Assembly: GCA_949710005.1 (NCBI GenBank)
Contig: OX453272.1
Location: forward strand, 20,180,929 to 20,244,928
Direction of reading: 5' to 3'
DNA length: 64,000 nucleotides
Origin: Ricordea florida
Lineage: Eukaryota > Cnidaria > Anthozoa > Corallimorpharia > Ricordeidae
In this document: positions 18,486-38,214 of the stretch, piece by piece
How the letters are laid out: each line of letters opens with the position of its first letter
Position numbering within the stretch: position 1 is the first letter of the stretch
Translations under genes and position numbers: made by a program
Notes under the pieces: generated by a model
What the model was told of the DNA's origin: nothing
The model's input: the letters and a program-made list of their open reading frames with translations, nothing else
The model's database searches: none

Positions 18486-19435
18486 TTAAGATACTATTTC
18501 CTTTAGATTGGAATTCATAACTGCCATTACAGCATCAGAAACAACGAACATATAACAAGTAATATTTCCAGATCCACCTTTTTGCCGTTTAATTTCAAGT
18601 CAATATCATCATGAGTATTTCTAATTGTAAAACCACCACCACGAATTTCATTATCAGGATTAGTTCTCAAATCAATCCATAAGGCGAATTTATCTGTGTA
18701 GAAATTTCCCTCTTTAACAGAACCATTCACCCCAAAACGTTTAATAGCAGATTACCATAAATCACTAGGTATCATACCCTTAGAATATCGACGATTTGAA
18801 ACACCATCAATATCGATATTAACTGAAGTTATTTTTGGATTTACAAACTTTTCAGAATTTCTATCTCGTTCTTTATAATCCTCTGTGAAAAGACATAAGA
18901 TTCCTGTCATGGATCTCTTTGGTGTATTTATATGTTTATTAATTAATTCATCATTAGATCTGATTAAAAAAGTTTCAAATAGAAGAATTTCTTCATACAT
19001 AAAACCTTTACCTATTCGATAAGAAGCCATTGCTTGTTCAGCTAAATATTCGCTTGAGATGGATGAATATTCCAACTCAATATTTGTGATTTCATAATCT
19101 GGAGGTGTTTCACTACTTGAATAAATAACAACATCAGAAACAGGGGCTAGAGTAATATCAAAACATAATGGCATAGGTAAAGATAAAAGACTCCATGATC
19201 GTTAAGAATTGGATGATCAAGAGGTATTGCATATCTGGTGTTATGAATCGCAGCTAGAAGAGCCTCCTCTGCATTTGAAGTATCTTTATCTCCTGCATTC
19301 GTTCTAAGTTTACGAATACTCTCAGAAGAAATACCTTGTCTCAACCTATTTTTACGCTGTTCCTTTGGTAAATATAAATCATGATAGGTTTTAAATAAAT
19401 CAAATCTAGAAGTATCCTGAATAGATACTTTGATG
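18486..19435 (-). pseudogene. E1 major capsid protein, N terminus deleted
   Basis: Frames 19147-19479, 18752-19174 and 18527-18730 together cover residues about 99 to the end of E2's 412-aa capsid-like protein. Landmarks are QGISSESIRKLRTNAGDK, NPKITSVNIDIDGV and the final VMNSNLK. Three shifts or stops break it. The first 98 residues are absent because a deletion joins this gene directly to the truncated integrase at about 19430. Confidence 0.8.
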
Positions 19436-19992
19436 GTGGATCCTGGTAAAGAATTCATGGGTAATGTTACAAAACTCATGGAGAAGCATGAAGTAATTAT
19501 TCAGAGAAGTTCGGCTGGGAATCATAGATTTCAGGCTTTTGTGGAGAGAGCTAATAGAACGATAAGTGAGAAATTATTTAGCCATCAATATGCGCAGGAG
19601 ATAATACCAGATGAAAGATCCAGAGTTTGGGTCAAAAGATTACCTGATATCATCAAAACTTTGAATACAACAACCACTAGAATAACCGGTAAATTACAAG
19701 AAGTTAAAATCGAGTCTATGAATTATAAATGACCAGTTGGGATTGAAGAAAAAAGATTACCTTCAGAGGTTATGGTTAGATATTTGTATGCTCCAGGTGA
19801 AGATGAGGGTGGAGAAAGAAGAAGAGCAACGGATCCGATTTGGAGTAAAGAAATTTATCCAGAAGTGTTGTTTCACCAAATCAACCGGTTTTGTACAATT
19901 TAGATGGCGGGCCTGGGATAGGATTTGTTCACGAGGAACTTCAAGTTGTGCCGGAAGATACTGAATTACCGCCTGAGAATGTCCTGAAATGA
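19430..19992 (+). pseudogene. E1 integrase, N-terminal half deleted
   Basis: The frame begins at VDPGKEFMG, which corresponds to the second catalytic Asp of E2's integrase. It continues through the glutamate motif FVERANRTISEKL and then breaks near 19690 and 19740. The SH3/chromo-like C terminus ends at 19992. The first catalytic Asp and the N-terminal domain are gone. The 3' end overlaps the convergent polymerase remnant, as in E2. Confidence 0.85.
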
Positions 19993-21866: not shown

Positions 21867-21959
21867 TTTGAAATTTGATTAAGTACTTTTAAAATAATTT
21901 AAGTCATCATTTTTTTAATTATTCATAACTAGTTTCAAGTTATGAAAACGTATATTAAC

Positions 21960-22181
21960 TTAAAGTTTAATTTTTTCCATTAATTTTTTACGTAATCGAT
22001 CTTTGACTGGTGTATTTTTCTTAAAATTTTTATTTATCACTTCAAAAATAATTCTAATATCATTCTCATTGTTTTTATTAAGTATACTTTGAATGTCATT
22101 ATCTGATAAACGATTTCCATATCTTTCAAAATCATAACACAAAAGATCCATTCTTTTATAATTTGATTTTGACTTCGGCAT
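21960..22181 (-). CDS. E1 terminal small ORF, 73 aa
   Basis: An intact, Lys/Asn-rich ORF lies between the polymerase and the right TIR. It has no membrane segment and no recognised motif. It has no counterpart in E2, where the polymerase starts inside the TIR. It could be a real element gene or a chance frame in AT-rich DNA. Confidence 0.35.
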   Translation of the reverse strand: MPKSKSNYKRMDLLCYDFERYGNRLSDNDIQSILNKNNENDIRIIFEVINKNFKKNTPVKDRLRKKLMEKIKL

Positions 22182-22261
22182 TATTTACTTTTTTTAATAT
22201 TTTTTAAATATATTTAACAATTTTAATATAATAAATCACCTATAGTAAATCCACTTTCATC

Positions 22262-22620
22262 TTAAAGTTCTTCAAATTCTTCAAATTCTCCAAATTCTTC
22301 AAGTTCTTCAAAAAATTCATAAGCTTCCATCATAAATTTTTCAAATTCTTCTATTTCATCTTCACATTTATTATACAATTCTTTATAATAAAATCCACAA
22401 TTTAAAAGTTTACAAATTCTGTGTTTTTTAACTTTTAATTTTAATTCCATCTAAATCTTCAGGCAATAATTCTTTTGATAAAATTTTTGCACAAATTTTT
22501 AATTTAATACCTGTATCTATTTCCGAATTCACAATTTGTTTACGTAATCTTTTAAAAAATCTTTTTATTTGGTAATTCATACAAAACATGTTCAATAAAA
22601 ATTTCAGCAACTAAAGACAT
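22262..22620 (-). pseudogene. E1 terminal ORF, Glu-rich tail, frameshifted
   Basis: A start at ATG 22620 gives about 22 codons before a stop. Shifting frame there and once more near 22440 gives a continuous Lys-rich then Glu/Phe-rich protein to 22262. The tail repeats EEF-type units. No homologue is recognised and the low complexity limits confidence. Confidence 0.35.
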
Positions 22621-22659
22621 TTTTACGCATATTCATAAAAAAACCAGTCCATTTTAATT

Positions 22660-22955
22660 TTTGCATAAACATTCCAATCATGGGCGTGGTCAATCATGAA
22701 TCAACATACCAATCATGGGCGTGGTCAACCGTGAATCAACACAAAAAAATCTGAATATAAAAAATTTTAAAATAATTCCATTTTTTCAAAAGTGAATCAA
22801 CATTCCAAAAAATCCGAATATATAAAATTTTAAAATAATTAATCCATTTATTCAAAAGTGAATCAACATTCCAATCATGGGCGTGGTCAATCGTGAATCA
22901 ACACATAAAAAAAATCACAATATAAAACATTTTAAAATAATTATTTCATTTTTCA
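22660..22955. repeat. E1 right terminal repeat with tandem units
   Basis: Three copies of CCAATCATGGGCGTGGTCAA (near 22674, 22709 and 22870) alternate with GTGAATCAACA-type units and TATAAAATTTTAAAATAATT blocks. The left end has only one set. The right TIR has therefore expanded by unit duplication, or the left has lost units. No AG...CT terminus or target duplication could be fixed. Confidence 0.75.
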
Positions 22956-24739: not shown

Positions 24740-25196
24740 TTCTCTTACGCTGATCAGAGAAACGTCTTGGCACATCACTGTAGCAACTCAAAGAGCAGAA
24801 AACCAAGAATTGCAGATGATGACATTTGTACATGTTTTCCAAAACTGCAATCAAGACAGCAGTGCAGTACTTGCAATTATGAAGGATGTCATTTTAAAGC
24901 TAAAAAAAAACAATGAAAACACAATGCTGGCTGTTATCACATTTTTCCAACCCACAAGATGGCAGCTGTGACAGGAAAGTATTTCCCATTAAATCACATG
25001 TGAGGATCCATATCAACCAAGGCTTAAACACTGAAACTTCCAAAGAGATGGTAGAAGCTATCCAGTCATCAGGAAGTGTTCCGGGGGTCAATGTCACATT
25101 ATGTGATTCTTTGGAAGGTCCAAAGTCTTCTTTTAGTGTGAAACTTTAAGGTGTCAGTTTCATTTCTAATATCGAAAACAGAGATGGAAGCTTATG
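24734..25196 (+). pseudogene. Zinc-finger-type gene, left half, split by E2
   Basis: A plus-strand frame (24913-25149) encodes HVRIHINQGLNTETSK and a VPGVNVTLCD segment. After one in-frame TAA at 25147 it stays open to the E2 target site. The same frame resumes exactly after E2 at 38215 with KAYRIGPGK. The pattern resembles a large multicopy family of cnidarian proteins with a C2H2 finger and a conserved C-terminal helical domain (recalled). The upstream part (24734-24912) is Cys-rich but broken. It was already a pseudogene, or part of another mobile element, when E2 inserted. Confidence 0.6.
25192..25196. repeat. E2 target-site duplication, left
   Basis: TTATG directly precedes the AG terminus of E2 and recurs directly after its CT terminus at 38210-38214. 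Polintons are described with six-base duplications. Here five bases match and the sixth flanking base differs. Confidence 0.85.
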
Positions 25197-25496
25197 AGTA
25201 GTTGTAATATGCCGATCCTAGGCCAAAAATTAAATTCCTTGATAAATTCCTTGATAAAATCCTTGATAAATTCCTTGATAAAATCCCTGATAAAATCCCT
25301 GATAAAATCCCCGATAAAATGGTTAATAAAATCTCCTGATAAAATGGTTAATAAAGTATCTTACGCAATCCTCCACCTCCTCCTACTCACCAAAACATTT
25401 AATTAGTGGTTTAAAGAAATACATATATAGTAGTAATAGATGGAGAACCAAACAGTAAAAGAACTGAAACTACTTGCCAAAGAGCGGGGTATTAAA
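25197..25496. repeat. E2 left TIR, extending into the polymerase gene
   Basis: Three parts are visible: a short unique end, an array of 12-base GATAAAATCC-type units (about 25236-25345), and a leader that includes the TTTAAAGA box, the polymerase start codon and the first 19 codons. Beyond 25496 the two ends diverge at the DNA level but still encode a similar SAP-like motif. Confidence 0.93.
25410..25417 (+). promoter_or_regulatory. TTTAAAGA box upstream of polymerase
   Basis: The octamer lies 22 bases ahead of the polymerase ATG. The same octamer, similarly spaced, precedes at least six other E2 starts. It probably acts as a TATA-like core promoter of the element. It is duplicated in the right TIR at 38013-38020. 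Confidence 0.6.
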
Positions 25497-28400
25497 AAAT
25501 ATTCTAGAATGCGTAAAGCCGAACTCATTGAAGCGTTGGGTATAAGAGAGGCCCAGCCAAATACACCGATCCCAACACCACGTACTAAGCTTTCTAAAAC
25601 TCCACCGATCCCAACACCACGTACTAAGCTTTCTAAAACTCCACCGATCCCAACACCACGTACTAAAAAAGCTAAACCTATCAAAGTACCACCAACCAAA
25701 CGACCACCCCTCAAAGCATCAGGTACTACTCCTAGAACTAATATCCTTAACCAACCGCAAAGACCCATTCCAGAACCCAGAAAATCGTTAGTTAAATCAT
25801 TCAAAGATTTATTAGGAATAGATAAAAATTCAGTTAGGGAAGGTATTAAAAAATTTTCAGACTTGATTATATCTTATGTCCCAGAACCTATCAAAAATAT
25901 TATAAACCGTGTATTTAATGAAGAAGAAGAAGATTATTTCACTGCAGAAGAAGAACAAGAAGAAGATTATTTCACTGCAGAAGAAGAACAAGAAGAAGAT
26001 TATTTCACTGCAGAAGAAGAAGAAGAAGATTTCACTCCAAAAGAACATCAAACAGCGTTGAAGGGGTATCTAAAAACCTATAGGATAGATGGACAGAAAG
26101 GGTATGACCCCAAGACATTTATCAATAACATCAAACCAAAAGTTCTGGATCTCATTAAGCAGCAAAAGAAGCCGCTCATGGTGAAATTTATATTTACGTG
26201 TAAGTTTATAAAAGAGAATCCTGCTACTGGACAGATTGATGTAAACTCAGGATACTTTAATTCAACCGTAGAAACGATTACTAAGTCAACCGATTTCTCT
26301 GACTCGTACAATACTATGACAAATCGTCTACTTGAATCAATCCAACAGTTTCAAAATCAAGGTTCTGGTTGGCAGTTTGATCAAGTGGAATACTTTGATA
26401 TCAACATCGACCCATTTGAACCTCTTTCTGGAAGTTCCTATATTCCACTACCATCAAAATTAGCATCAAAGAAGGCAATTATCAACGTTAAGAATGAGAA
26501 GGATCATGAGTGTTTCAAGTGGGCAGTAACCTCAGCTGTATATACACAAGATGTTCATCCAGAGAGACTAAATAAACAAATGAGAGAGAACTCAAATAAT
26601 TTTGACTGGTCAGGAATAGAGTTCCCCGTTTCACTAAAACAGATTGATAAGTTCGAAAAGCAAAACCCCTATGCGATTAACGTCTACGGATATGAAGGTG
26701 ATGTATACCCTCTAAAAATAAGTAAGAAACATAAAACTAATGTAATCAACTTACTTCTCATATCAAACGATGAAACAAATCACTACTGCTGGATAAAGAA
26801 TATGAGTAGACTTTTATCCTCTCAAGTCAATAATCACCAACACGCACGCACATTTTGCTATAGATGTCTTAACTCATTCCAGTCAAAGACTTCATTAGAA
26901 AAACATCTCGAATACTGCACCACAAACGAAGAAGTTAAGATTGAAATGCCTTTAGATAAAGATGGAAATCCCCTTCATATTTACTTTAAGAATTTCAACA
27001 GAAAAATGCGACACCCCTTTGTTGTATATGCCGACTTTGAGAGCTCTACAGAGAAGATAGACACCTGCTCCCCAGATGAAAGTAGAAGTTTTACTAAACA
27101 ATACCAGAAGCACAAAGCATCAGGTTACTGCTATCTTATCAAGTGTTTTGACGACAACATATTTCCACCCAAGCTTGTACGATACACTGCCGAATCCCCA
27201 GACGAAGATATACCACAGATGTTTGTAGATAATTTAGAGTCAGATATTAAGAAAATTTATAATAGGTTCAAATTCCATAAGAAGGTAAAGATGAGTAAGA
27301 AAGATAAAATCGACTATAAAAATGCTACTCACTGCCACATCTGCGAGGATGAATTAGGAGAAGATAAGGTATTAGACCACTGCCACCTTACAGGAAAGTA
27401 TAGAGGAGCAGCTCATAACGAATTCAACTTAAACTATAAAATTCCAAAGTTCTTCTCAGTAATCTTTCATAATCTATCTGGATATGATTCACATCTATTT
27501 ATCAAGAACCTTGGTACATCAAAAGGTAAAATAAACTGTATACCTAATAATGAGGAAAAGTATATTTCTTTCACAAAACAGATTGTAGTTAGCACCTTTA
27601 CAAACAAAGAAGGTAAGCAGGTTGATGTGAAGCGAGATATAAGATTCATCGATTCATTTAAATTTATGGCAACCAGCCTTGACAGCTTAGTAACTAATCT
27701 ATCAAAAGAGGCTTTCAAAAACCTAAAGAGCTACTATGAGGGTGAGCAATTAGAGTTATTATTGAGAAAGGGTGTTTTCCCATACGATTGGTTTGATGGA
27801 TTAGATAAACTCAACGCAACCAAACTTCCACCAAAGGAGGCATTCTACTCAAAACTCAATGACACAGACATAACAGAAGACAACTACCAACATGCTCAAA
27901 AGGTGTGGGGAATCTTTGATATGAAAACAATGAGGGATTACCACGACCTATATCTTGAGTCAGATGTACTCCTGTTAGCTGATGTCTTTGAGAACTTTAG
28001 AGATATTTGCAGTAAAAGCTATGGATTGGACCCTGCCTGGTATTACACAGCACCTGGACTAGCTTGGGATGCAGCGTTAAAGTTAACTAAAGTAGAGTTG
28101 GAGCTGCTAACTGATCCTGACATGCTACTTATGGTTGAGAAAGGCATTCGAGGAGGCGTATCTATGATCTCTACTAGATATGGTAAAGCTAACAATCCGT
28201 ACATGACCAACTTTGATTCTAACTTACCCACAATATATATCACATATCTTGACGTAAACAATCTCTATGGATGTGGAATGAGTAAACCACTCCCTACTCA
28301 CGGTTTTAGATGGATGACTAACCAAGAGCTTACAAACTGGAAAAATCTCCCATGCATACTCGAGGTTGATTTGGTGTATCCTCAACAACTTCACGACTTG

Positions 28401-29474
28401 CATAACGACTATCCACTAGCTCCAGAGAGACTTATCGTTGAAAAGGTTGAGAAATTGATCCCAAACCTCAACGACAAGGTAAAGTATGTAGTTCACCATG
28501 AGACCCTGAAAGTTTACGAAAGTCTAGGATTAAAAGTCACCAAGATTCATAGGGGTATTACATTCGAAGAGTCTGCATGGTTAAAACCGTACATCGACTT
28601 GAATACCAACCTCAGGGCTAAAGCATCCAACGATTTTGAAAAAGATTTCTTCAAGCTGATGAATAACTCCGTATTTGGGAAAACCATGGAAAACATTAGA
28701 AAAAGGGTGGACGTACGATTGGTTACTAATGAAAAAGATGCGAAAAAATTAATATCAAAGCCAAACTATCAGCACCACACCATCTTTTGTGATAATCTAG
28801 CGGCCATCCACATGAAGAAAACAAAGTTGGTCTTCGATAAACCTGTTTACTTAGGCATGTGTATTTTAGACCTAAGTAAAACATTGATGTATGATTTTCA
28901 CTACAATTACATCAAACCTAAATATGGTGAAAGGGGTAAGTTGCTGTTCACAGATACGGACAGTCTTGCCTATGAGATAGAAACAGATGATTTCTACAAG
29001 GATATTAGCAAAGATGTAAAATCCATGTTTGATACTACTAATTATCCCAAAAACCATCCATCAGGTATCGAGACAGGTGTTAACAAGAAAATCATCGGCA
29101 TGTTCAAAGATGAGGCTGGTGGTAAACAGATAACCGAATTTGTAGGTCTACGGGCCAAGCTCTACTCCTACAGGATGGATGAAGGTACAGAAGAAAAGAA
29201 ATGTAAGGGAATGAAGAAGGCAGTCGTCAAGAAAACCATCAGTTTCGATAACTACAAGGATTGCCTATTCAATAAAGAACCACAGATGAGACAGATGAAT
29301 GTAATCAGAAGTCATAAGCATGATGTTTACACTGAAACGGTTAACAAGATCGCCTTATCACCATTTTATGACAAGAGACACATTTGTGAAGATGGTATAC
29401 ATACTTACGCCCACGGACATTATCGTTCAAACACAAAATTAGGTGGCAGCTCAGTATCTTCTGGTACAAACTGA
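25440..29474 (+). CDS. polB: Protein-primed type B DNA polymerase with SAP-like N terminus, 1344 aa
   Basis: The enzyme replicates the linear element. Residues 5-34 form a SAP-like DNA-binding motif. A Pro/Thr-rich linker with a 13-residue unit repeated almost three times and an acidic linker with an 11-residue unit repeated three times follow. A C2H2-type finger lies near 470-492 and ExoI DFES at 532. A Cys/His cluster resembling endonuclease VII-type zinc sites (CHICEDE, LDHCHLTGKYRG) lies near 632-665. The ExoII segment HNLSGYD and ExoIII YHDLYLESD follow. Palm motifs are A (YLDVNNLYG, Asp 938), B (NNSVFGK) and C (DTDS, 1172-1175). All catalytic acids seen are present. The start is fixed by the TTTAAAGA box and by the shared TIR start. 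The 3' end overlaps the convergent integrase by 55 bases. It is longer than many Polinton polymerases because of the linkers. Confidence 0.95.
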   Translation: MENQTVKELKLLAKERGIKKYSRMRKAELIEALGIREAQPNTPIPTPRTKLSKTPPIPTPRTKLSKTPPIPTPRTKKAKPIKVPPTKRPPLKASGTTPRTNILNQPQRPIPEPRKSLVKSFKDLLGIDKNSVREGIKKFSDLIISYVPEPIKNIINRVFNEEEEDYFTAEEEQEEDYFTAEEEQEEDYFTAEEEEEDFTPKEHQTALKGYLKTYRIDGQKGYDPKTFINNIKPKVLDLIKQQKKPLMVKFIFTCKFIKENPATGQIDVNSGYFNSTVETITKSTDFSDSYNTMTNRLLESIQQFQNQGSGWQFDQVEYFDINIDPFEPLSGSSYIPLPSKLASKKAIINVKNEKDHECFKWAVTSAVYTQDVHPERLNKQMRENSNNFDWSGIEFPVSLKQIDKFEKQNPYAINVYGYEGDVYPLKISKKHKTNVINLLLISNDETNHYCWIKNMSRLLSSQVNNHQHARTFCYRCLNSFQSKTSLEKHLEYCTTNEEVKIEMPLDKDGNPLHIYFKNFNRKMRHPFVVYADFESSTEKIDTCSPDESRSFTKQYQKHKASGYCYLIKCFDDNIFPPKLVRYTAESPDEDIPQMFVDNLESDIKKIYNRFKFHKKVKMSKKDKIDYKNATHCHICEDELGEDKVLDHCHLTGKYRGAAHNEFNLNYKIPKFFSVIFHNLSGYDSHLFIKNLGTSKGKINCIPNNEEKYISFTKQIVVSTFTNKEGKQVDVKRDIRFIDSFKFMATSLDSLVTNLSKEAFKNLKSYYEGEQLELLLRKGVFPYDWFDGLDKLNATKLPPKEAFYSKLNDTDITEDNYQHAQKVWGIFDMKTMRDYHDLYLESDVLLLADVFENFRDICSKSYGLDPAWYYTAPGLAWDAALKLTKVELELLTDPDMLLMVEKGIRGGVSMISTRYGKANNPYMTNFDSNLPTIYITYLDVNNLYGCGMSKPLPTHGFRWMTNQELTNWKNLPCILEVDLVYPQQLHDLHNDYPLAPERLIVEKVEKLIPNLNDKVKYVVHHETLKVYESLGLKVTKIHRGITFEESAWLKPYIDLNTNLRAKASNDFEKDFFKLMNNSVFGKTMENIRKRVDVRLVTNEKDAKKLISKPNYQHHTIFCDNLAAIHMKKTKLVFDKPVYLGMCILDLSKTLMYDFHYNYIKPKYGERGKLLFTDTDSLAYEIETDDFYKDISKDVKSMFDTTNYPKNHPSGIETGVNKKIIGMFKDEAGGKQITEFVGLRAKLYSYRMDEGTEEKKCKGMKKAVVKKTISFDNYKDCLFNKEPQMRQMNVIRSHKHDVYTETVNKIALSPFYDKRHICEDGIHTYAHGHYRSNTKLGGSSVSSGTN
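25566..25666 (+). repeat. 39-bp coding tandem repeat in polymerase linker
   Basis: Nearly three copies of a 39-base unit encode a Pro/Thr/Arg/Lys-rich 13-residue repeat (PIPTPRTKLSKTP). The copies are identical at DNA level, so the expansion is recent. Confidence 0.9.
25920..26033 (+). repeat. 33-bp coding tandem repeat, acidic
   Basis: Three copies of a 33-base unit encode the 11-residue acidic repeat EEDYFTAEEEQ. It follows the basic Pro/Thr repeat and gives the linker a strong change of charge. Confidence 0.9.
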
Positions 29475-30397
29475 AGCTCTTCCCTAACAAAACTACGCCT
29501 CGGTCCATCTAGTAAATAATACAACACTGGCTGATTAGGTGACACCACACTCCTAGAAAGATTGTAAACCCGAATACTCCAGATAGGATCCGTAGCTCGT
29601 CTGCGCTCACCACCCTCAAGTTCACCAGGAGCTAATAGATACCGAACTTTAACACCAGGTGGCAGTCTCACCTCATCATGTCCAACAACTCGCTTATACT
29701 TTGGAGGATCAATATCAACCTCTTTCAATCTAATGGCTTTTACAGGCTCTTTACCAGTAATGCGTGTAGGTTGACTATTCAGAGTTTTCAAAATAGCCGG
29801 TAATCGTTTCACCCATACTCTAGATCGATCATCACTAATCATTTCTTGAGCATATTGATGACTAAATAGTTTTTCTGATAATGTTCTATTTGCTCTTTCA
29901 ACAAATGCTTGAGCTCTATGGTTTCCAGCTTCAGACCGTTGTATGGTTACATTATGTTTTTCCATAAGTTTTGTTACATCACCCATAAATTCTCTTCCAG
30001 GATCGACAATTAATGTTTTAGGATATTTTAACTTTCTGGAGTATATTTTTGTTAAAGCTTTGGATACCTCATTACTTTCTTTTGAGGTTAGTGGTTCTGC
30101 ATCTTTGTATCTCGAGGCAATATCAATCACAACCAGAGCATATCGATATGTCTTTCTTCCCACTTTATCATGTGGTAAAAATAATAAATCCGCTTGGTGA
30201 ATCTGATTAGGCTTTTCCACATTCCAGTGAGGTCTAGGGATATACTTTGGAGCTGGTAGATAGATTTGCCACAGCGCCTGTTTCTCAAGCCATCGTTTAG
30301 CCTCATCTTCACTAACGTTTGCTTTTTCAGCTAATTTTGGAATGGCAGAATAACCTTTCCAATATCCATAAGTTGAATAGTATGTTTTTGATAGCAT
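29420..30397 (-). CDS. Retroviral-type (rve) integrase, 325 aa
   Basis: This enzyme would join the element ends to target DNA. A helical N-terminal region (residues 1-50) precedes the DDE core: Asp 70 in IHQADLLF, Asp 132 in IVDPGREF and Glu 167 in FVERANRTLSEKL, with about 35 residues between the last two. The C terminus from about 250 has a basic SH3/chromo-like domain. Integrases of this type are a hallmark of Polintons. The gene is divergent from the capsid gene with 49 bases between start codons, and convergent with the polymerase. The AG...CT ends and 5-bp flanking repeat fit its activity. Confidence 0.93.
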   Translation of the reverse strand: MLSKTYYSTYGYWKGYSAIPKLAEKANVSEDEAKRWLEKQALWQIYLPAPKYIPRPHWNVEKPNQIHQADLLFLPHDKVGRKTYRYALVVIDIASRYKDAEPLTSKESNEVSKALTKIYSRKLKYPKTLIVDPGREFMGDVTKLMEKHNVTIQRSEAGNHRAQAFVERANRTLSEKLFSHQYAQEMISDDRSRVWVKRLPAILKTLNSQPTRITGKEPVKAIRLKEVDIDPPKYKRVVGHDEVRLPPGVKVRYLLAPGELEGGERRRATDPIWSIRVYNLSRSVVSPNQPVLYYLLDGPRRSFVREELQFVPEDTELPPNFVFER

Positions 30398-30446
30398 GTT
30401 TTCGTTACTAATTTAAATAATATTCCGACTATCTTTAAAATAAAAC
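30398..30446. promoter_or_regulatory. 49-bp bidirectional promoter between integrase and capsid gene
   Basis: The whole gap between two divergent ATG codons is 49 bases of AT-rich DNA. A TTTAAAGA box on the minus strand (30432-30439) sits 34 bases from the integrase start. Read on the plus strand the same sequence is CTTTAAAA, six bases from the capsid start, and an ATTTAAATAAT stretch lies nearer the integrase. Very short leaders are implied. Confidence 0.55.
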
Positions 30447-31685
30447 ATGTCGCAAGCTATATCTGAAGAAATTAACCCAAACAGGATTCCACTAGAGCCT
30501 CTCGGTTTGAAAGCGGAATCGTCACTGAATCGAATTACACTCAATCCCTCATCCGCTAATCCTGAAGAAACACTATATATAAATATTCCACAACTTTCTC
30601 AGAATGTAGTGATTGTCCCAGGAAGTGTATCTCTACTATTTGACTTGACTGTTGATGGTCATGCTAACAACACCCTTGTGAATAACGTAGGCAGTAACCT
30701 TGTATCCAGACTCAGGGTTCTTTTTGGTGGAGAAACACTACAGGATACTCAAAGATACGATCTCTTTCAAACCTACCATGACTTATACTTAACAGCTGAA
30801 GATCGTCAGAATGGAATAAAACAAGGTATTTCTTCTGAAAACATGAGGAAGCTTAGGACAAATGCGGGTGATAAGGTAACTTCAGGAAATGATAAGGAAG
30901 TAGCTCTTGCAGCAGTATACAACACCAAGTACCGTATCCCACTCAACCATCCTATTCTCAGCAAGCATGGGGTTTTCTATCCAAAGGCGTTACCTCATTC
31001 ACTAATCTTTGAGATTACACTGGCCTCAGTTTCAGATATTGTTGTTTATTCTGACAAGACAAAGACTCCAACTTACACAATCGAAAACCTTGAGTTGGAA
31101 TATGCTTGTATCTCAAGTGAATACTTAGCTAGTGAGGCTAAGTCAGCTTATCAGGTTGGTAAAGTATTCTTTTACGAGAATGTACTTCTCCACAAAACTT
31201 TTACCATCTCCAAACCTAATGACAGTTACATAAACGAGTACATTAATATACCTAGGAGATCAATGAAAGGTATATTGTGCTTGTTCACAGATAGATACGT
31301 CGGAGGAGCACGAGACTCTGAGAAGTTTGTCAATCCAAATATTACATCAATCGACATTAACGTTGACGGCATGCCAAACCGTATCTACTCCAAGGGAATG
31401 AAAACGTCAGACTTCTGGGATTCGGTAATGAAACGTTTCGGTAAAGAGGGTGTCAAGCTAAATGATTTTTATGTCGACAAGTTTGCTCTATGGATTGACT
31501 TGAGAACTCACCCTGACAATAGTATTCATGGAGGAGGTATGGCCTTGAACAATACACGAGATGGAGTAAAACTTGAAATGAAACGAAAAGTTGGAGGAAC
31601 AGGAAATATCACCTGTCACATGTTTGTGGTAGCCGACGCGTTGATGGAGATCATGAATTCAAACTTAAGATCAATTATGTATTAG
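30447..31685 (+). CDS. Predicted double-jelly-roll major capsid protein, 412 aa
   Basis: The predicted shell protein has no catalytic motif and no membrane segment, and consists of beta-strand-like stretches. Features shared with Polinton/adintovirus major capsids as recalled are an early strand pair PGSVSLLFDLTV, a NNVGSNLVSRLRVLFGGE segment followed by an aromatic YDLFQTYHDLY helix, the internal HPILSKHGVFYP, and NPNITSIDINVDGMPNRIY in the second jelly roll. The position directly before the packaging ATPase also fits. The length is short for the family (often above 450). E1 carries an N-terminally deleted homologue. A structure prediction would settle the call. Confidence 0.72.
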   Translation: MSQAISEEINPNRIPLEPLGLKAESSLNRITLNPSSANPEETLYINIPQLSQNVVIVPGSVSLLFDLTVDGHANNTLVNNVGSNLVSRLRVLFGGETLQDTQRYDLFQTYHDLYLTAEDRQNGIKQGISSENMRKLRTNAGDKVTSGNDKEVALAAVYNTKYRIPLNHPILSKHGVFYPKALPHSLIFEITLASVSDIVVYSDKTKTPTYTIENLELEYACISSEYLASEAKSAYQVGKVFFYENVLLHKTFTISKPNDSYINEYINIPRRSMKGILCLFTDRYVGGARDSEKFVNPNITSIDINVDGMPNRIYSKGMKTSDFWDSVMKRFGKEGVKLNDFYVDKFALWIDLRTHPDNSIHGGGMALNNTRDGVKLEMKRKVGGTGNITCHMFVVADALMEIMNSNLRSIMY

Positions 31686-31692
31686 TTAAAAG

Positions 31693-32319
31693 ATGGAAGA
31701 ACTGCGAGATAAAGTTCCTTTTCATTGCATTATAACAGGTCCAACAAATTGTGGAAAGACAAAGTACCTCATGGATCAGCTAAGAGGACCATTTCGCAAA
31801 GTTTTTGAATACATTGTTCTAATATGTCCTACTTATGCTAAAAATAAAACCTATCATAAATTTGCTCACGGAGATAAACGTTTATTAGTATTATCACCAG
31901 ATGCTAGTAACAGCGATGAGATTAACGAGTTATTAACTGATTGTCAAACTTTGTTCTCTGGTACAAATACACTAATAATTTTAGACGACTGTGCTGTATC
32001 GAAAGATCTAAAGAAACGCTCGAACAAGTTTATAGATCTATCATTCTCTGGAAGACATCACGGATTATCAGTGTGGGTATTGACACAACAATTAACATCC
32101 ATAGCAAAACCATTCCGTGAAAATGTAGCTTGTGTGGTTACATTCCATAATCCATCACAAAAAGGTATGAAGATGCTTTTCGAAGATTATGGAGGTGATT
32201 TAGAAGCTGAAACTCGTAAAAAGTTTGTAGAAATACTGAAAACCGAAAAATATTCGAGACTCTGTTTGTGTTTACGTTATCCATTCCAATGTTATTTAGA
32301 GATTCCCGCGGTGATTTAA
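31693..32319 (+). CDS. A32-type (FtsK/HerA) genome-packaging ATPase, 208 aa
   Basis: This protein pumps element DNA into capsids. The Walker A motif GPTNCGKT lies at residues 16-23, Walker B LIILDDC with Asp 98-99, and a downstream VWVLTQQ sensor-like segment matches poxvirus A32/Polinton ATPases. The size is typical. It starts seven bases after the capsid stop, without its own TTTAAAGA box. It is therefore probably read together with the capsid gene or from an unrecognised promoter. Confidence 0.92.
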   Translation: MEELRDKVPFHCIITGPTNCGKTKYLMDQLRGPFRKVFEYIVLICPTYAKNKTYHKFAHGDKRLLVLSPDASNSDEINELLTDCQTLFSGTNTLIILDDCAVSKDLKKRSNKFIDLSFSGRHHGLSVWVLTQQLTSIAKPFRENVACVVTFHNPSQKGMKMLFEDYGGDLEAETRKKFVEILKTEKYSRLCLCLRYPFQCYLEIPAVI

Positions 32320-32349
32320 AAGAATCTATGTATTATTACAAATTAAAAG

Positions 32350-32832
32350 ATGACAAGCGTTGAAGATTTTATTGAAGAACAACCTGAGGTAAAAGATAAG
32401 ACCAAAGATGATGATGTTGAAATCAAACAAGAATCACTAGCTATTCTCACATCTCTTGGGACCACAAAGGAATATCTAGGTGATGAGATGAGTCTAGGTG
32501 ATATAAAGAAACTCAAAGCAAAAGAAGTTGAAAAATATTATAATCGGTACCAGACTGTATTAGGTAAGAAAATTAGTGGTGGATTAGTAGATTCAACTCT
32601 TAAATTAATTTCTCATGTCATTTCGTACTTGGTTGATGTGGACGATATCGAAGCGCTTTGTGAAGACTTAAAAAACGATGAGTTGGTTAATCGTGAACTA
32701 TCAAACTTTGCTGGTCTGTCAGTACTGAGAGGTGGAAGATTGGTAGCACTTGCTAGTGGACTATTCCAGGTTGCTAAGCACATTAAAATCAACAAAATAC
32801 AAGAAGAAGTTTCAAGTACTGATCACAACTGA
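32350..32832 (+). CDS. Conserved helical protein, 160 aa
   Basis: The N terminus is acidic. The remainder is predicted helical with ESLAIL, TKEYLGDEM, a YYNRYQ segment and a final GGRLVALASGLFQVAKH amphipathic helix. An intact E1 homologue (17383-17883) shows it is conserved in the same position after the ATPase. Similar predicted proteins occur with cnidarian Polintons (recalled). The role is unknown, with a structural or assembly function most likely. A variant promoter box TTTAAAAG lies 27 bases upstream. Confidence 0.72.
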   Translation: MTSVEDFIEEQPEVKDKTKDDDVEIKQESLAILTSLGTTKEYLGDEMSLGDIKKLKAKEVEKYYNRYQTVLGKKISGGLVDSTLKLISHVISYLVDVDDIEALCEDLKNDELVNRELSNFAGLSVLRGGRLVALASGLFQVAKHIKINKIQEEVSSTDHN

Positions 32833-32840
32833 TTTAAAGA
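32833..32840 (+). promoter_or_regulatory. TTTAAAGA box upstream of the 128-aa gene
   Basis: An exact octamer lies 26 bases before the ATG at 32867 and overlaps the stop region of the previous gene. Confidence 0.55.
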
Positions 32841-32866
32841 TTCTTTACTATGGGAAATAAATAATC

Positions 32867-33253
32867 ATGTCTGATGAAGTTGTTGAACAAATTACAATAG
32901 ATCCCCCTCCTCCTAAAAATAAGAAAGCTGTTAAAGAGAAAGACCCTAAAAAGGTTGCTGCCGGTAAGAAACTAGCGGAATATAACAAAAGAGCTAAAGA
33001 AGCGTTAGCAAGGGAAATTAAACGTGAAGCGGAGACTAACCAGGAAGAAAATATAAATGCAGAGAGCGAATCTAAAGCATGGATTCCAGAGCTATCTTTT
33101 ACTACTGTGTTATCTCTTGTTGGAATAGGGTTTACCGCAGTTGACATGTTTATGAGGTACTACAAAAACAGAAAACCACCAACCCAACCACCACCCTCAC
33201 AGACCACTACCAAACCACCACCTCAACCAACTCCTAAAATAGTAATGCTCTGA
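32867..33253 (+). CDS. Single-pass membrane protein with Pro-rich tail, 128 aa
   Basis: Residues 1-60 are Lys/Glu-rich, with the conserved DPKKVAAGKKLAEYN block. One membrane segment spans about 74-96. The C terminus is a Pro/Thr-rich tail (TTKPPPQPTP). The E1 homologue keeps the basic block and membrane segment but not the tail. The layout suggests a virion or membrane-associated protein with a flexible tail. No enzyme motif is present. Confidence 0.7.
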   Translation: MSDEVVEQITIDPPPPKNKKAVKEKDPKKVAAGKKLAEYNKRAKEALAREIKREAETNQEENINAESESKAWIPELSFTTVLSLVGIGFTAVDMFMRYYKNRKPPTQPPPSQTTTKPPPQPTPKIVML

Positions 33254-33262
33254 GGAAAGTAG

Positions 33263-33270
33263 TTTAAAGA
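33263..33270 (+). promoter_or_regulatory. TTTAAAGA box upstream of the 72-aa gene
   Basis: The exact octamer, followed by TTTT, lies 24 bases before the ATG at 33295. Confidence 0.55.
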
Positions 33271-33294
33271 TTTTCTCTACCCACAATAAAAATC

Positions 33295-33513
33295 ATGTCA
33301 ACTGAAAACAAACTTGTGAAAACTGTTACCAATTCAGCCGTCATTATCGGATTGGCTGCCGGTGTTGGATACGTAGCTAAAAAGGCTATGAAAGAATCAT
33401 TTATAAACGACCCCTCCTCAAGTATTACAAACTATGCTAAATGGGTCGCTGTCCTGTCCGGTAGTATGTACCTAAAAACTTATTTAGAAGATCAAAAGAT
33501 TTTGCCAACTTAA
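33295..33513 (+). CDS. Small two-helix membrane protein, 72 aa
   Basis: A short polar start (NKLVKTVTNSA) leads into a Gly/Ala-rich hydrophobic helix at about 14-28. A polar loop with NDPSSS and a second hydrophobic helix at about 48-60 follow, ending in a charged tail. It is homologous over the full length to the intact E1 ORF at 16499-16720. Two short helices suggest a hairpin membrane protein, possibly viroporin-like in shape; that is inference only. Confidence 0.68.
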   Translation: MSTENKLVKTVTNSAVIIGLAAGVGYVAKKAMKESFINDPSSSITNYAKWVAVLSGSMYLKTYLEDQKILPT

Positions 33514-33536
33514 AGATTTTACATATTGACTAATAA

Positions 33537-33929
33537 ATGGCGACAATAGCAATGATGATTGGTGGAGCTATTTTGAATGCGACTACGTTCGTTGGTGGGT
33601 CATATCTTGCAAAATATCTCTCAGGTGATAACACAGATGCGGAGCGAATACGACACGACAAGGCAATAGAAAAATATCAAAAAGATTATGCTACATACCA
33701 GGAAAAGAGACAGAAACTCATTGATTGGTACTCTCAACAGCAGGATGCTAAACACATAGCTTCACAAAATATTTCTAATACTGATGAAGGTTTGAAATTG
33801 TATAGTCAGACACATGAACCAAAATTCTCTGATTATTATAGACCTAGTAGCAATCAAAAGATGGGGGAGATGGCATATGTGGGTGGTGGTATGCTGGCAT
33901 TGGGTTATATGGTTAGTAAATTATTTTAG
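33537..33929 (+). CDS. Membrane protein with hydrophobic ends, 130 aa
   Basis: There is a Gly/Ala-rich hydrophobic N terminus (residues 3-27) and a strongly charged helix with ERIRHDKAIEKYQK. A conserved EPKFSDYYRPSSNQK segment leads to a C-terminal hydrophobic Gly-rich segment (about 112-128). The E1 copy is split by an insertion. The near-match box CTTAAAGA lies 20 bases upstream of the start. The function is unknown. Confidence 0.7.
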   Translation: MATIAMMIGGAILNATTFVGGSYLAKYLSGDNTDAERIRHDKAIEKYQKDYATYQEKRQKLIDWYSQQQDAKHIASQNISNTDEGLKLYSQTHEPKFSDYYRPSSNQKMGEMAYVGGGMLALGYMVSKLF

Positions 33930-33945
33930 GTAAGTGTGTGACCAG

Positions 33946-33953
33946 TTTAAAGA
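33946..33953 (+). promoter_or_regulatory. TTTAAAGA box upstream of the 314-aa gene
   Basis: The exact octamer, followed by TTT, lies 24 bases before the ATG at 33978. Confidence 0.55.
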
Positions 33954-33977
33954 TTTCTTACTGATAAGTAAAAAATT

Positions 33978-34922
33978 ATGGCAGAAGGCGGAGATATACC
34001 AGACTTTCCTGTTGATATAGATGATGATGATGATGATGATGGGAATGATACAATTAATTTGAAACAAATCACAAACACATCCACCAGTCGTCAAACTAAA
34101 CATGACGCAAAATTTAAAGAAACTTCATTTGGTGGTAGTGAAACTCAGCCCTTCTTGTTGAAAGATTTGGGAGAGATGGAAATTGAACAAGATGAAGCCT
34201 GGGATAGAATCAAATCAAAATTCCCAAAAGTTGATGCTTCCAAGTTCACAGCTAAAATTAACGATTTGGGTCATGTAATTGTGAAACTGTTAAGAAAAAA
34301 TTCAAGACCTTATACTTTATTAGGTAAAGATGATGAAATTAATGATAAACTCCCCAAGATTATAAGGGACAGTCTAGGCCCAAGAGCAGAAGAGGTTGTG
34401 GAGGCTAATGATGGTGTGATCGCTGAGAAAAAGGGATTACTCACCAAAATGAAAGAGAAGCTAAAATTCCAAAGAGATAAGCCGCTTAAGACCCCAGAGG
34501 AAAGTAGCCAAATTGAAACTCTAGAGAGAGAAATTGCTGATCAAGAACAAGAGATAGCCAACTTGGAGGAGGATAATGAGCAAATACAGGAAAGAATGTC
34601 ATTACGGGATCGTGTGAAGGCCATCTTCAAAAAGTACGGTTTTACAGTCTTTGCCGTTGTTAGTGCTGTAGGTGTGGTTATTGGTGTTATAGTTTCTAAT
34701 CATTCTAAAGGTCTAACCAAATTGGGTAAAGGTGTTGGTAACGGGTTGAAAGCGATTGGTAAGAAACTCGGTGAAATATTGCCTGGAATGGTTGGAGCTA
34801 TCGTGAGCTTTCTGTTCAAGACTGCCGGTGAGGTTATTGGTTTTTTAAGTAAAAATGCTTGGCTGCTTATAGTGGCTGTGGTTCTATATTTTGTGGAACA
34901 ATTTAAAAAGAAGAGACGCTAA
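33978..34922 (+). CDS. Acidic/coiled-coil protein with membrane-active C terminus, 314 aa
   Basis: Order of parts: an acidic N terminus with eight consecutive Asp codons near residue 15-22; a mixed central region; a Glu/Gln-rich coiled coil near 170-205; a first membrane segment at 222-240; a Gly/Lys-rich amphipathic stretch (GKGVGNGLKAIGKKLG) at 250-265; a hydrophobic ILPGMVGAIVSFLF core; and a terminal membrane segment (294-308) ending in basic residues. The C-terminal 70 residues are the best conserved part in E1. The amphipathic plus hydrophobic end resembles membrane-active virion components of related elements (recalled). A penetration role is inference. Confidence 0.7.
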   Translation: MAEGGDIPDFPVDIDDDDDDDGNDTINLKQITNTSTSRQTKHDAKFKETSFGGSETQPFLLKDLGEMEIEQDEAWDRIKSKFPKVDASKFTAKINDLGHVIVKLLRKNSRPYTLLGKDDEINDKLPKIIRDSLGPRAEEVVEANDGVIAEKKGLLTKMKEKLKFQRDKPLKTPEESSQIETLEREIADQEQEIANLEEDNEQIQERMSLRDRVKAIFKKYGFTVFAVVSAVGVVIGVIVSNHSKGLTKLGKGVGNGLKAIGKKLGEILPGMVGAIVSFLFKTAGEVIGFLSKNAWLLIVAVVLYFVEQFKKKRR

Positions 34923-34934
34923 GTAAAAAAAATA

Positions 34935-35111
34935 ATGAATGAGACAACGTTTCTATCTATCACTATGCTAACTCCTGAAACAAGAATTTATCTGGATCCA
35001 CCCTTAACCCAAGTAAAAGATATACAAATGCAAGTTAGTTACATTTCTATGTTGACTTAAGTTGACTTAAATAACGAACCTATCCGAATTCATTTAAAGA
35101 TTTCCTGTTGA
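34935..35111 (+). pseudogene. Minor capsid (penton-like) gene, internally deleted
   Basis: A 41-codon ORF (34935-35060) encodes an N terminus with the DPPL element. It stops at a TAA inside the first of two tandem copies of GTTGACTTAA. A second frame from the other copy (35061-35111) encodes a 16-residue C-terminal strand ending in HLKIS. Both ends match the two ends of the E1 gene at 13792-14383, so most of the reading frame between them has been lost. The duplicated ten bases mark the deletion point. E2 therefore cannot make this protein itself. Confidence 0.55.
35093..35100 (+). promoter_or_regulatory. TTTAAAGA box upstream of the 198-aa gene
   Basis: The exact octamer, followed by TTTCC, lies 20 bases before the ATG at 35121. 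It lies within the remnant 3' end of the minor capsid gene. Confidence 0.55.
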
Positions 35112-35120
35112 TTTTTCAAA

Positions 35121-35717
35121 ATGGAAGACTACAATAGAATTTATCCACAAGTGCCTCTGAATGGTGACCAAAATAATTTCAGACTTCAAAAATCGTGTGA
35201 AGTAGTACATAATCTTCAGAAGGAAATTAGACATTATGAGGATGTTAGGAAAAAATACAATAGAGCGAGGGGGATATTTACTAAAATCAGTGTTGGTAGC
35301 GGGGTGGTTTCAGTTATCCTATCTGCAAGTGGACTGGGAACCTCTCTTACTGGTTTTGGTGCTGTTGTTGGTATCCCGTTGGGAGCGGTTGGTGGTCTTT
35401 GTGGTGGAATATCGGTCGGATTCGGTGCGGCTTCTAAACGACTTTCACATAAAGTTAGTAAACACGAACAGACCGTTTCTCTAGCAAAAGCAAAAGTAAA
35501 CACCATTCACGACTTGGTTTCAAAGGCACTGAAAGATAACGCCATCTCCGACCAAGAATTTTCGCTAATTTTAGCAGAGGTTGACAAGTTTGAGAAACTA
35601 AAACTCGAAATCCGTCAAAAAAACCGGAAAGATACAGAAAAAAACTTAAATATGTCACAGATAAGGACAGAGGTTCGTGCGGAAATTTTAAAGGAGTTAA
35701 CCGGTCCCGAACGTTGA
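35121..35717 (+). CDS. Gly-rich hydrophobic helical protein, 198 aa
   Basis: The protein has a polar N terminus and a charged helix (HNLQKEIRHYEDVRKKYNRA). A long Gly/Ala/Ser/Val hydrophobic region at about 52-105 follows, and then a conserved helical half with SHKVSKHEQTVSLAKAK and ISDQEFSLIL. The same order is seen in E1. Related predicted proteins are frequent in cnidarian genomes next to Polinton genes (recalled). The hydrophobic stretch could span a membrane twice. The role is unknown. Confidence 0.7.
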   Translation: MEDYNRIYPQVPLNGDQNNFRLQKSCEVVHNLQKEIRHYEDVRKKYNRARGIFTKISVGSGVVSVILSASGLGTSLTGFGAVVGIPLGAVGGLCGGISVGFGAASKRLSHKVSKHEQTVSLAKAKVNTIHDLVSKALKDNAISDQEFSLILAEVDKFEKLKLEIRQKNRKDTEKNLNMSQIRTEVRAEILKELTGPER

Positions 35718-35820
35718 AATTTTCATTTGAGCGAACGCCTGTAGGATGGAATTATGAGGTTGGTATTAGAAAAGAACGGTGTTGATTTAAAAACATCTTA
35801 TTATAAACATAAATAATAAA

Positions 35821-37356
35821 ATGTTACTAAATGATTTCAGAAATAGGTATCCAAAGGCTGATCACAGTCAATTCGTATTTGTGGCCGATCAATATGGTGG
35901 TTACATTAGGTGGAAAGTTAATGGGACAACAATCATGTCTTATGATGACCCCACTGGCAAAACATGGACCGAAGACCTATCACCCCGTTTGAAAAGACTG
36001 CTATGGAAAGATTTAGGATTGAGTGATGATGAATTAAGCTCATTCCCAAAGAGTTTAACTATGACCAATCGCTCTTACCCAATACCTGCCATTGATTTTG
36101 ATGACTTCACAAGTAATATCACAAACATGCTGACCTCATTAGATATATACGTGTCCAATACTAAGAAATTCACCGCTAAGATGCGAAACGTATTTACATC
36201 CCAAGTTGTTACTTTCAAGTTTGGTAAACAGAGTCGAAAATGGCTTAACGCTCCCGATATGAATTATTGGCCCCAACAACTAAACTTTGCAGTGTGGTGT
36301 GCGACCTCTGGATGTGGTATAAGTCCTTTCGAGAGTCTCAACTACCCTAAAGTCGTTAGTAGCTTCATTAAGTTTCATATATATTTCACAATAAGACGAA
36401 TACTGTATGAATTGAGTCTTCCCTTACCTGATGAGCAACCCTTTGTAATCAATAACAACCCTTACAGCAAAGTAGCTTATCAACGATTGTGTGCAGAATT
36501 TGGAATCTCAAAAAACTCTGACTTTAGATGGAAAGGTGGAAGAAATGGGGGTTTGGGAGATATATTCATAGATTATGGTGCTGGATATCATGGAGCGGGT
36601 GGTGGTTATCAAAATGTCCATATGGTAAGGAACTATGATGATGAAGCTGATCAATGGCCCGGTGAAGGTGGTAAATTCGCTGATGATGGGGGTAAGAAGG
36701 AAAAGGGTGACCTCATCTCATTCATCCGTAATGACGATTTTGCCGATTACAAATATGCTTGGTTTATCCCAACAAGTGGCTATGGACTCACTAAAGCCGG
36801 TCTTGGTAGATTGAATCGATCTGTAGAAGCTTTTGTTTACTGCATATTGGGGGCGCAAGTCAACACTAGAAACTCGATTTCCGGTAGTGGTGGTGGAGCG
36901 ATCGAGACTCAACAAGAATTCTTAGCCCTGTTTGAGAGTAGTGTGATTGAGAATGACATTTCGAGTTCGATCCAAAGGTATCAATTAGCTGTCCAAGAAG
37001 CGAAATTACGTCTTGATTTAGCTGTTGCTCCCGGTGTATGGCTAATGCCTAGTAATATGATAATCAACACTGAGAGTGTGACTGGTTTTAATAACAACTT
37101 GATGAAGGCCACTAGTGATATGAGTTTTGGAGTGAATAGTTCCCTAAACACTGAAGCAAAACAGGTTGGAATAAAACATAACATGGGATCTTCAAAGATA
37201 AAGTTACCGCATAGAACTGAGACGAAACCAAAACCCTCAACTCAAACAGACTCAATGCGACCAGACTCAATGCGATCAGACTCAACGCAACATGAAAAGA
37301 ATATATTAGCATTTATAGTTGTCGCTGGTGGATTAGCGTGGTATCTATTTTGGTAG
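35821..37356 (+). CDS. 511-aa conserved orphan protein with C-terminal membrane anchor
   Basis: This is the largest gene after the polymerase. The conserved core (residues about 60-420) contains SFPKSLTMTNRSYPIPAIDF, NYWPQQLNFAVWCATSGCGI, a Gly/Asp-rich middle and the LRLDLAVAPGVWLMPSNM segment. A Ser/Thr/Pro-rich linker with a DSMR repeat leads to a hydrophobic anchor at about 491-510. No catalytic motif is visible. Conservation with E1 along the full length implies an essential part. A surface or vertex protein of the virion, anchored in an inner membrane, is one possibility. The variant box TTTAAAAA lies 27 bases upstream. Confidence 0.75.
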   Translation: MLLNDFRNRYPKADHSQFVFVADQYGGYIRWKVNGTTIMSYDDPTGKTWTEDLSPRLKRLLWKDLGLSDDELSSFPKSLTMTNRSYPIPAIDFDDFTSNITNMLTSLDIYVSNTKKFTAKMRNVFTSQVVTFKFGKQSRKWLNAPDMNYWPQQLNFAVWCATSGCGISPFESLNYPKVVSSFIKFHIYFTIRRILYELSLPLPDEQPFVINNNPYSKVAYQRLCAEFGISKNSDFRWKGGRNGGLGDIFIDYGAGYHGAGGGYQNVHMVRNYDDEADQWPGEGGKFADDGGKKEKGDLISFIRNDDFADYKYAWFIPTSGYGLTKAGLGRLNRSVEAFVYCILGAQVNTRNSISGSGGGAIETQQEFLALFESSVIENDISSSIQRYQLAVQEAKLRLDLAVAPGVWLMPSNMIINTESVTGFNNNLMKATSDMSFGVNSSLNTEAKQVGIKHNMGSSKIKLPHRTETKPKPSTQTDSMRPDSMRSDSTQHEKNILAFIVVAGGLAWYLFW

Positions 37357-37543
37357 TTCATGAGTATTTCACGTGGGTATACAGTCTCGATCACGTGTAG
37401 AACAATAGATTACATACTTTTACGACATAGCAACAAGCAAGTTGGAAAGTAGATTTGAAGTTTACTTTTAAAAGGCTGGTTTCTAACGTCGCTCAGGAAT
37501 GTCTATAAATTTTGTTATGTAACACTGACTTGCGTTATATAAC

Positions 37544-37990
37544 CTAGTGTTTTTGTTTTGTATCTTGTGTATCTTGTGTTGCGTGACACTCTGTACACTT
37601 CGACTTTATTATATTGTGTTCACATATACATAACCTACAAAGCCATATTTGTTTTCCATGAATACATATTCCTTTCCCGTTGCAGTCTTTACATACATAC
37701 CTATCCCTTTTATGCTCACAAAGACTACCACCGTTGCATTCTATACATCGCGTTTTCCTTCGATTATGGGGACATATTTGCGATCCTCCGCATAACTTAC
37801 AGCAATATTTAACCCTTCCATGAATACACTTATACTTAATATTTTTTTTTTTATCAGGTATCGGTTCATGTGAGGGGGCGGTTATATTACCCAGAGCTTC
37901 AATGAGATCGGCTTTTAGCATTCGATAATATCCTTTAATACCCCGCTCTTTGGCAAGTAGTTTCAGTTCTTTTACTGTTTGGTTCTCCAT
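37544..37990 (-). CDS. SAP-like / Cys-His repeat protein sharing its start with the polymerase, 148 aa
   Basis: The first 19 codons and the promoter lie inside the right TIR and are identical to the start of the polymerase. The SAP-like motif (residues 5-34) continues with lower identity beyond the TIR. From about residue 54 five zinc-binding-type modules follow, each CxH then about six residues and CxxC (for example CPHNRRKTRCIEC). A His/Gln/Thr tail ends the protein. A nucleic-acid-binding or regulatory role acting on the same sites as the polymerase is a fair inference. A related repeat module is fused to the polymerase remnant in E1. Confidence 0.75.
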   Translation of the reverse strand: MENQTVKELKLLAKERGIKGYYRMLKADLIEALGNITAPSHEPIPDKKKNIKYKCIHGRVKYCCKLCGGSQICPHNRRKTRCIECNGGSLCEHKRDRYVCKDCNGKGICIHGKQIWLCRLCICEHNIIKSKCTECHATQDTQDTKQKH

Positions 37991-38209
37991 CTATTACTAC
38001 TATATATGTATTTCTTTAAACCACTAATTAAATGTTTTGGTGAGTAGGAGGAGGTGGAGGATTGCGTAAGATACTTTATTAACCATTTTATCAGGAGATT
38101 TTATTAACCATTTTATCGGGGATTTTATCAGGGATTTTATCAAGGATTTTATCAAGGAATTTATCAAGGAATTTAATTTTTGGCCTAGGATCGGCATATT
38201 ACAACTACT
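37934..38209. repeat. E2 right TIR
   Basis: This is the reverse complement of 25197-25496, shorter by 24 bases because two 12-base units are missing from the tandem array. The rest appears identical, including the first codons of the SAP-like start. Confidence 0.93.
38013..38020 (-). promoter_or_regulatory. TTTAAAGA box upstream of the SAP/zinc gene
   Basis: The minus-strand octamer lies 22 bases before the ATG at 37990 and is the TIR twin of the polymerase box at 25410-25417. Confidence 0.6.
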
Positions 38210-38214
38210 TTATG
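38210..38214. repeat. E2 target-site duplication, right
   Basis: TTATG directly follows the CT terminus of E2 and matches 25192-25196. Confidence 0.85.

Follow-up and report, generated by a model that had tools for sequence, protein, structure and literature searches.

How two unrelated genes at opposite ends of one mobile element come to share a promoter and an N terminus is the question raised by a Polinton-like element of 13.0 kb from Ricordea florida. It is located at positions 25197–38209 of the window, i.e., the whole stretch of 64,000 nucleotides that was analyzed. One terminal gene encodes PolB, and the other, which reads inward from the right end, encodes a small protein with Cys/His repeats (C/H protein).

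The element, its ends and its genes

The features of the element and its flanks are listed below, with their coordinates in the window, strand and basis.

25192–25196, no strand: left target-site duplication TTATG (direct sequence)
25197–25496, plus strand: left terminal inverted repeat (TIR), 300 bp, begins AGTAGT (sequence alignment)
25410–25416, plus strand: TTTAAAG box, 30 nt before the PolB ATG (sequence)
25440–29474, plus strand: PolB, 1344 aa (recognized motifs, fold match, profile search)
29420–30397, minus strand: RVE integrase, 325 aa (PF00665, E 1.2e-9)
30447–31685, plus strand: candidate double jelly-roll major capsid protein, 412 aa (PF16903, E 0.0036, below the Pfam cut-off, and position)
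31693–32319, plus strand: A32-like packaging ATPase, 208 aa (PF04665, E 2.5e-12)
35821–37356, plus strand: 511-aa protein without family match, adjoins the right end (homolog in the second element of the window)
37544–37990, minus strand: C/H protein, 148 aa (ORF, Pfam, model)
37934–38209, minus strand: right TIR, 276 bp (sequence alignment)
38210–38214, no strand: right target-site duplication TTATG (direct sequence)

The right boundary, which the initial annotation had placed at 37990, was corrected to 38209 by alignment of the TIRs. No substitution was found between the two TIRs in 276 aligned columns; they differed solely by a gap of 24 bp within an array of 12-bp tandem repeats. The left TIR contains 9 units of this repeat, the TTTAAAG box, four in-frame stops, the ATG of PolB and its codons 1–19. 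The contents of the right TIR are the same, except that it has 7 repeat units and that the ATG and codons 1–19 belong to the C/H protein; the units were counted by a sequence pattern of our own. The tandem repeats span 25231–25363 (9 units) and 38069–38175 (7 units), and a 70-aa reading frame bearing an LIKS/LINS repeat is also left uninterrupted by those of the left end. In the window, 21 bases taken from the outer TIR end matched twice at up to 3 mismatches, where 0 matches were expected, and both matches were the ends of this element. All ORFs used for the element genes were open in one piece, and the element is apparently young and intact. An assembly artifact is unlikely, as the flanks differ at the two ends while the 5-bp duplication is common to both.

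Similar to Polintons/Mavericks, the element possesses an RVE-type integrase, an FtsK/HerA (A32)-type ATPase, TIRs and a terminal-protein (little-finger-like) domain before the polymerase. The target-site duplication known from vertebrate elements is 6 bp, whereas that flanking this element is 5 bp (TTATG), and the element was therefore named "Polinton-like." No peptidase family was matched when the 12 element proteins were searched with Pfam sequence profiles for an Ulp1-type maturation protease. The remaining genes encode several proteins without family match.

PolB starts with a Rho_N head (residues 1–34), which is followed by a linker (residues ~36–195) that was modeled with low confidence and is predicted to be probably disordered, a little-finger fold (residues ~197–330) and the polymerase motifs. 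The latter are DVNNLY, NNSVFGK, and DTDS, which we take to be motifs of a polymerase. No polymerase profile was matched in searches with Pfam (on the protein and 12 aligned relatives), NCBIfam, PHROGs and PDB sequences. The PolB relative P0057, from a bacterial MAG record, was named DNA polymerase by its source. Thus, the name PolB is based on the motifs, the terminal-protein-like fold and the name given to P0057. In the fold search, residues 197–330 matched the little finger of Y-polymerases, a match that is also described for Polinton terminal proteins in the available text of PMC11071308, and the modeled region is a putative terminal-protein-like domain. In addition, Cys358 and His448 were invariant in 10 sequences and are located where a vOTU protease is expected, in a poorly modeled region. 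PolB also contains an endonuclease-VII-like zinc motif (residues 614–657, 27279–27410 of the window; PF02945, E 0.0006, below the cut-off), which was matched in all 12 aligned PolB relatives at E up to 0.1.

A shared gene start with a Rho_N head

Both terminal ATGs, that of PolB at 25440 and that of the C/H protein at 37990, lie inside the TIRs. As the initial annotation had stated, the TIRs extend into coding sequence, of which the ATGs and 19 codons are found within the 300- and 276-bp repeats. Its description of two terminal genes with a common promoter and N terminus was also borne out, the TIR being identical throughout the box, the ATG and codons 1–19. Four in-frame stops stand immediately before the ATG (TAG TAG TAA TAG ATG) and render the start unambiguous. 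DNA identity was said to stop after codon 19, and it does so exactly: codons 20–34 differ at 9 of 45 bases (80% identical), with silent changes in 3 codons and amino-acid changes in 4 codons. The boundary at codon 19 is not due to chance (Fisher p 1e-8), identity within the TIRs being expected anyway. Past codon 34, the similarity between PolB and the C/H protein was no better than that of shuffled sequences.

Similar to the box before PolB, the TTTAAAG box of the right TIR is 30 nt before the ATG of the C/H protein. TTAAAGA, which was first picked by eye in the same sequences so that its count is descriptive, was found 27–41 nt upstream of 8 of the 12 element genes, including both terminal genes and 6 of the 10 others. 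TTTAAA was present at ~27–42 nt upstream of 10 of the 12 genes (span 25410–38020) and TTTAAAG upstream of 7. The element contains 10 copies of TTAAAGA on both strands, 8 of which are the sites before genes, and 3% (plus strand) and 1% (minus strand) of its 60-base pieces hold this motif. Judged from these positions, the TTTAAA-type box is apparently the element's own promoter type, and the TIR supplies it to both terminal genes.

The first 34 residues of the two proteins were identified as Rho_N (PF07498), with scores of 34.8 bits (E 1.6e-8) and 29.9 bits (E 5.5e-7) against a cut-off of 24.9. A SAP-like motif had been proposed to continue in the proteins beyond the identical DNA. The similarity indeed continues to residues 33–34, but the domain is Rho_N rather than SAP. 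The SAP profile (PF02037) reached 11.2 bits (E 0.3) in the C/H protein against a cut-off of 23.9 and was not matched in PolB; weak SAP matches were found in 5 of 18 C/H and 2 of 12 PolB relatives (best E 0.0007). The model of the C/H protein was superimposed on the N-terminal part of Rho, with 15 of 17 Foldseek matches being Rho and a deviation of 0.9 Å over 32 residues (best E 1.3). Moreover, Rho ranked first when a sequence profile was compared with solved structures (E 0.009). The body of the C/H protein consists of five C-x-H-x6-C-x2-C units at residues 55–135.

Heads, linkers and element ends among relatives

Rho_N was found in 16 of 18 C/H proteins (the window protein and 17 relatives), and a head was recognized by our own pattern in 111 of the best 120 of 4680 PolB matches; both shares are biased upward, because the search queries contained the head. 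Among the best 120 of 3051 matches to the C/H repeats, 115 of the 116 new proteins were without a head by our own pattern, the exception being P0163; the search profile favors long arrays and therefore headless long proteins. Most of the rows have one protein layout. The organism names among the relatives listed were Nematostella, Exaiptasia, and Oculina, in addition to the bacterial MAG record of P0057.

The similarity between C/H proteins and PolBs often exceeds the head. The best partners were P0006 and P0018 (89% identity over 71 columns), P0012 and P0098 (92% over 77) as well as P0011 and P0094 (84% over 80), all of which then diverge abruptly. In several pairs, the similarity extended to residues 63–80, into the predicted disordered linker, before a sharp stop. 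When linkers alone were compared with 112 PolB linkers, 11 of 16 C/H proteins scored above the best of 100 shuffles. P0002, which has two heads, was left out of this comparison, as were P0015, P0017 and those PolB rows in which the head was absent or escaped the pattern. Linkers of P0006, P0011, P0012, and P0163 matched those of particular PolBs at 30 of 35, 39 of 46, 41 of 43, and 49 of 59 residues, respectively, and the matches of P0003, P0008, and P0013 covered merely 14–22 columns. P0001 tied with its best shuffle, and P0004, P0009, and P0014 fell short. Likewise, the linker of the window C/H protein was not common with the PolB linkers compared (score 34, shuffles up to 42). P0163 and PolB P0086 are apparently on one contig (length 2533339 for both), yet their linkers differ, which was counted against copying between ends. 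P0002, a C/H protein, contains two heads in a row, of which the first is PolB-like, as is its linker, and the second has diverged; in PolBs P0020 and P0023, the beginning of the head is partly doubled. We read these doubled heads as traces of end-copying, although they may also stem from plain duplication. P0017 is a C/H relative without a head that may be a fragment.

A tree of 17 C/H and 42 PolB heads, built from 89 columns and with many open forks, rejected a single C/H clade (AU p 0.00055), which was recovered in 0% of 200 bootstrap trees. Nine changes between C/H and PolB were counted on the best tree, of which at least three are forced by well-supported branches. The sample was without P0015, P0017 and 9 of 121 PolB rows (head missing or missed); after removal of 11 duplicates over 60 residues, thinning at 88% identity reduced the other 101 PolB rows to 42. 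A larger earlier head tree agrees (10 changes, 0% of bootstrap trees). The C/H labels were more clustered than shuffled ones (9 changes versus a mean of ~15, with 0 of 500 shuffles as low), and some shared history of the C/H heads therefore remains.

The window also contains a second, broken element at ~10352–22942, which has many short inverted repeats at its ends. Its genes for PolB, integrase, capsid and the 511-aa protein are related to those of the element at 25197–38209, the pieces being 58–77% identical. Its repeats end ~800 bp short of its C/H head, and the similarity between its inner ends was at chance level (score reached by 39 of 200 shuffles). On one and the same strand, the Rho_N head and a C/H piece are joined directly to PolB from residue 803 onward, and the other end of the element has a different ORF. 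The second element is without the shared-start layout, and the arrangement is therefore not universal. This element was the one relative compared at the DNA level. The initial annotation had named two features of related elements as speaking against its reading, namely unrelated starts at the two ends or terminal repeats that always end ahead of the ORFs. In the second element, the repeats do stop before the ORFs; at the protein level, two proteins with a common head but different bodies recur in relatives. A third, short PolB remnant was found at 47474–48449 on the minus strand, covering residues 96–459 at 25–47% identity.

In the search for intact related elements, scans of IMG/VR with PolB, the C/H protein and the candidate capsid protein gave no match; a scan with a PolB alignment gave two loci, matching just a short zinc-motif stretch or a 109-residue PolB stretch. 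A scan of genome contigs found three more distant PolB contigs (L003, L004, and L005). The PolB of L004 (3582–7052) is without a Rho_N head, and L003 and L005 do not include the PolB start. The three contigs are in bacterial MAG records (Muriicola, Gastranaerophilales, and Cyanobium) and are probably eukaryotic contamination. When IMG/VR was scanned with the head alone, 31 loci were found. In a tblastn search of five element proteins against 36 loci, these 31 matched at most the head, plus some linker in L011, L017, and L020, and they are therefore uninformative on element ends. Similar heads were also present in several kinds of phage protein families (PHROGs).

Origin of the shared start and comparison with known systems

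The window and the relatives are probably best accounted for by a terminal repeat that has expanded inward across the start of PolB at its 5′ end, with end-copying spreading the gene start in a protein-primed element. The TIR would then be a movable "gene start" that consists of the element-type promoter, the start codon and most of the Rho_N head. During protein-primed replication, one end could be rebuilt on the other, either by panhandle annealing or by a broken end copying the other, and the right-hand C/H gene would receive the PolB promoter and head in frame. In the main, the PolB end is likely to have served as the template for the C/H end, because the head is missing from most C/H-repeat proteins found outside this group; copying would have occurred during replication rather than after insertion. 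The stretches of ~34 to 80 residues shared by relatives, with their variable end points, may likewise be owing to their TIRs. In several relatives, the linker is shared along with the head, which is better explained by end-copying than by selection acting solely on a DNA-binding domain. The earlier proposal of gene conversion between the ends is supported as to homogenization, the common promoter and the pairing of one head with two different bodies; in detail, the head is Rho_N, and the shared part is longer than the head in several relatives.

End-copying is compatible with functional targeting, in which the Rho_N head would be a putative nucleic-acid-binding module selected on both proteins, bringing PolB and the C/H protein to one site, perhaps the 12-bp repeats of the TIR. 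This is possible, albeit tentative: conservation of the head goes beyond the stretch of identical DNA (codons 20–34) and extends to most relatives listed, it fits the N-terminal part of Rho (0.9 Å over 32 residues, with Foldseek E >1), the TIR offers 7–9 twelve-base repeats and the PolB head precedes a terminal-protein-like fold. However, the similar heads of the 31 IMG/VR loci and of varied phage families mean that the domain names no target, and sharing often passes the head into the linker. The latter would rather be expected if the head were idle in the C/H protein and present just because the TIR covers the start codon and promoter. For codons 1–19, TIR identity is a sufficient explanation, several relatives have the linker in common as well as the head, and headless P0017, which may be a fragment, exists. 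That the head is a passive by-product is nevertheless doubtful, given that heads are recognizable past the identical stretch and in the doubled P0002.

That the head was fused to both genes once, long ago, and was then inherited separately with only ordinary upkeep of the TIRs is disfavored and improbable. This would agree with the partial clustering of C/H heads (9 changes versus ~15 when shuffled) and with the one layout of most rows, but one C/H clade was rejected (AU p 0.00055), and the linkers of P0006, P0011, P0012, and P0163 match those of particular PolBs. As identical TIRs are silent on when they were equalized, ectopic gene conversion between the ends after chromosomal insertion, and not in replication of the free element, could also be considered. 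It is very improbable: zero substitutions and open genes fit a recent insertion equally well, and in-frame joints across many lineages would be easier to keep in a replicating element.

The position of the PolB head has a further implication. Because the head is before the terminal-protein-like domain, the cleavage that has been proposed for Polintons would leave it attached to the DNA-linked terminal protein, and we would guess that this brings both proteins into action at the genome ends. It is conceivable, if rather unlikely, that the TIR is a transplantable gene start in a broader sense, such that each rebuilding of an end could graft the terminal-protein head onto whatever gene is opposite. 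The element would then go on producing proteins whose head is that of the molecule covalently bound to its DNA ends, and would be a built-in fusion generator by which a zinc-type protein is tied to the very ends that replication uses. The locus provides a concrete sequence-level case in which linear protein-primed elements can create and maintain gene fusions at their ends. When a repeat that is identical at both ends carries coding sequence, the N termini of two different proteins undergo concerted evolution. The case makes two questions testable in public cnidarian genomes: by what route terminal repeats become longer or shorter, and what precedes the Polinton terminal protein.

According to the available text of PMC8097293, vertebrate Polintons/Mavericks have TIRs of 46–1447 bp (mean 402), an (AGT)2 end motif and a 6-bp target duplication. 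The element described here resembles them in its RVE integrase, A32-like ATPase, PolB-like gene, TIRs and AGTAGT start. Different from them, it has a 5-bp duplication, and its TIRs extend into both terminal ORFs, a feature unmentioned in that portion of the source. The layout of Polinton pPolB is TP-vOTU-Exo-Palm in the available part of PMC11071308. Similar to pPolB so described, PolB of this element has a little-finger-like domain at residues 197–330 and Cys/His residues where vOTU is expected. Different from it, PolB has an extra Rho_N head and a long linker before the terminal-protein domain. Neither "Rho" nor "SAP" occurs in the searchable text of that paper.

In the titles and abstract openings surveyed, neither a TIR that extends into Polinton coding sequence nor a Rho or SAP head on a Polinton PolB was described. 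Compared with headless C/H-repeat proteins, the C/H protein has the same tandem C-x-H-x6-C-x2-C units; 2 of 10 scanned headless proteins carry GIY-YIG, whereas the protein of this element has a Rho_N head and no nuclease part.

Poxviruses and some fungal mitochondrial plasmids are linear, and their terminal repeats hold parts of genes. Similar to these, genes of the element described here reach into the terminal repeats. Different from these, however, one start is given to two unrelated genes, and the point at which start and body join moves between lineages.
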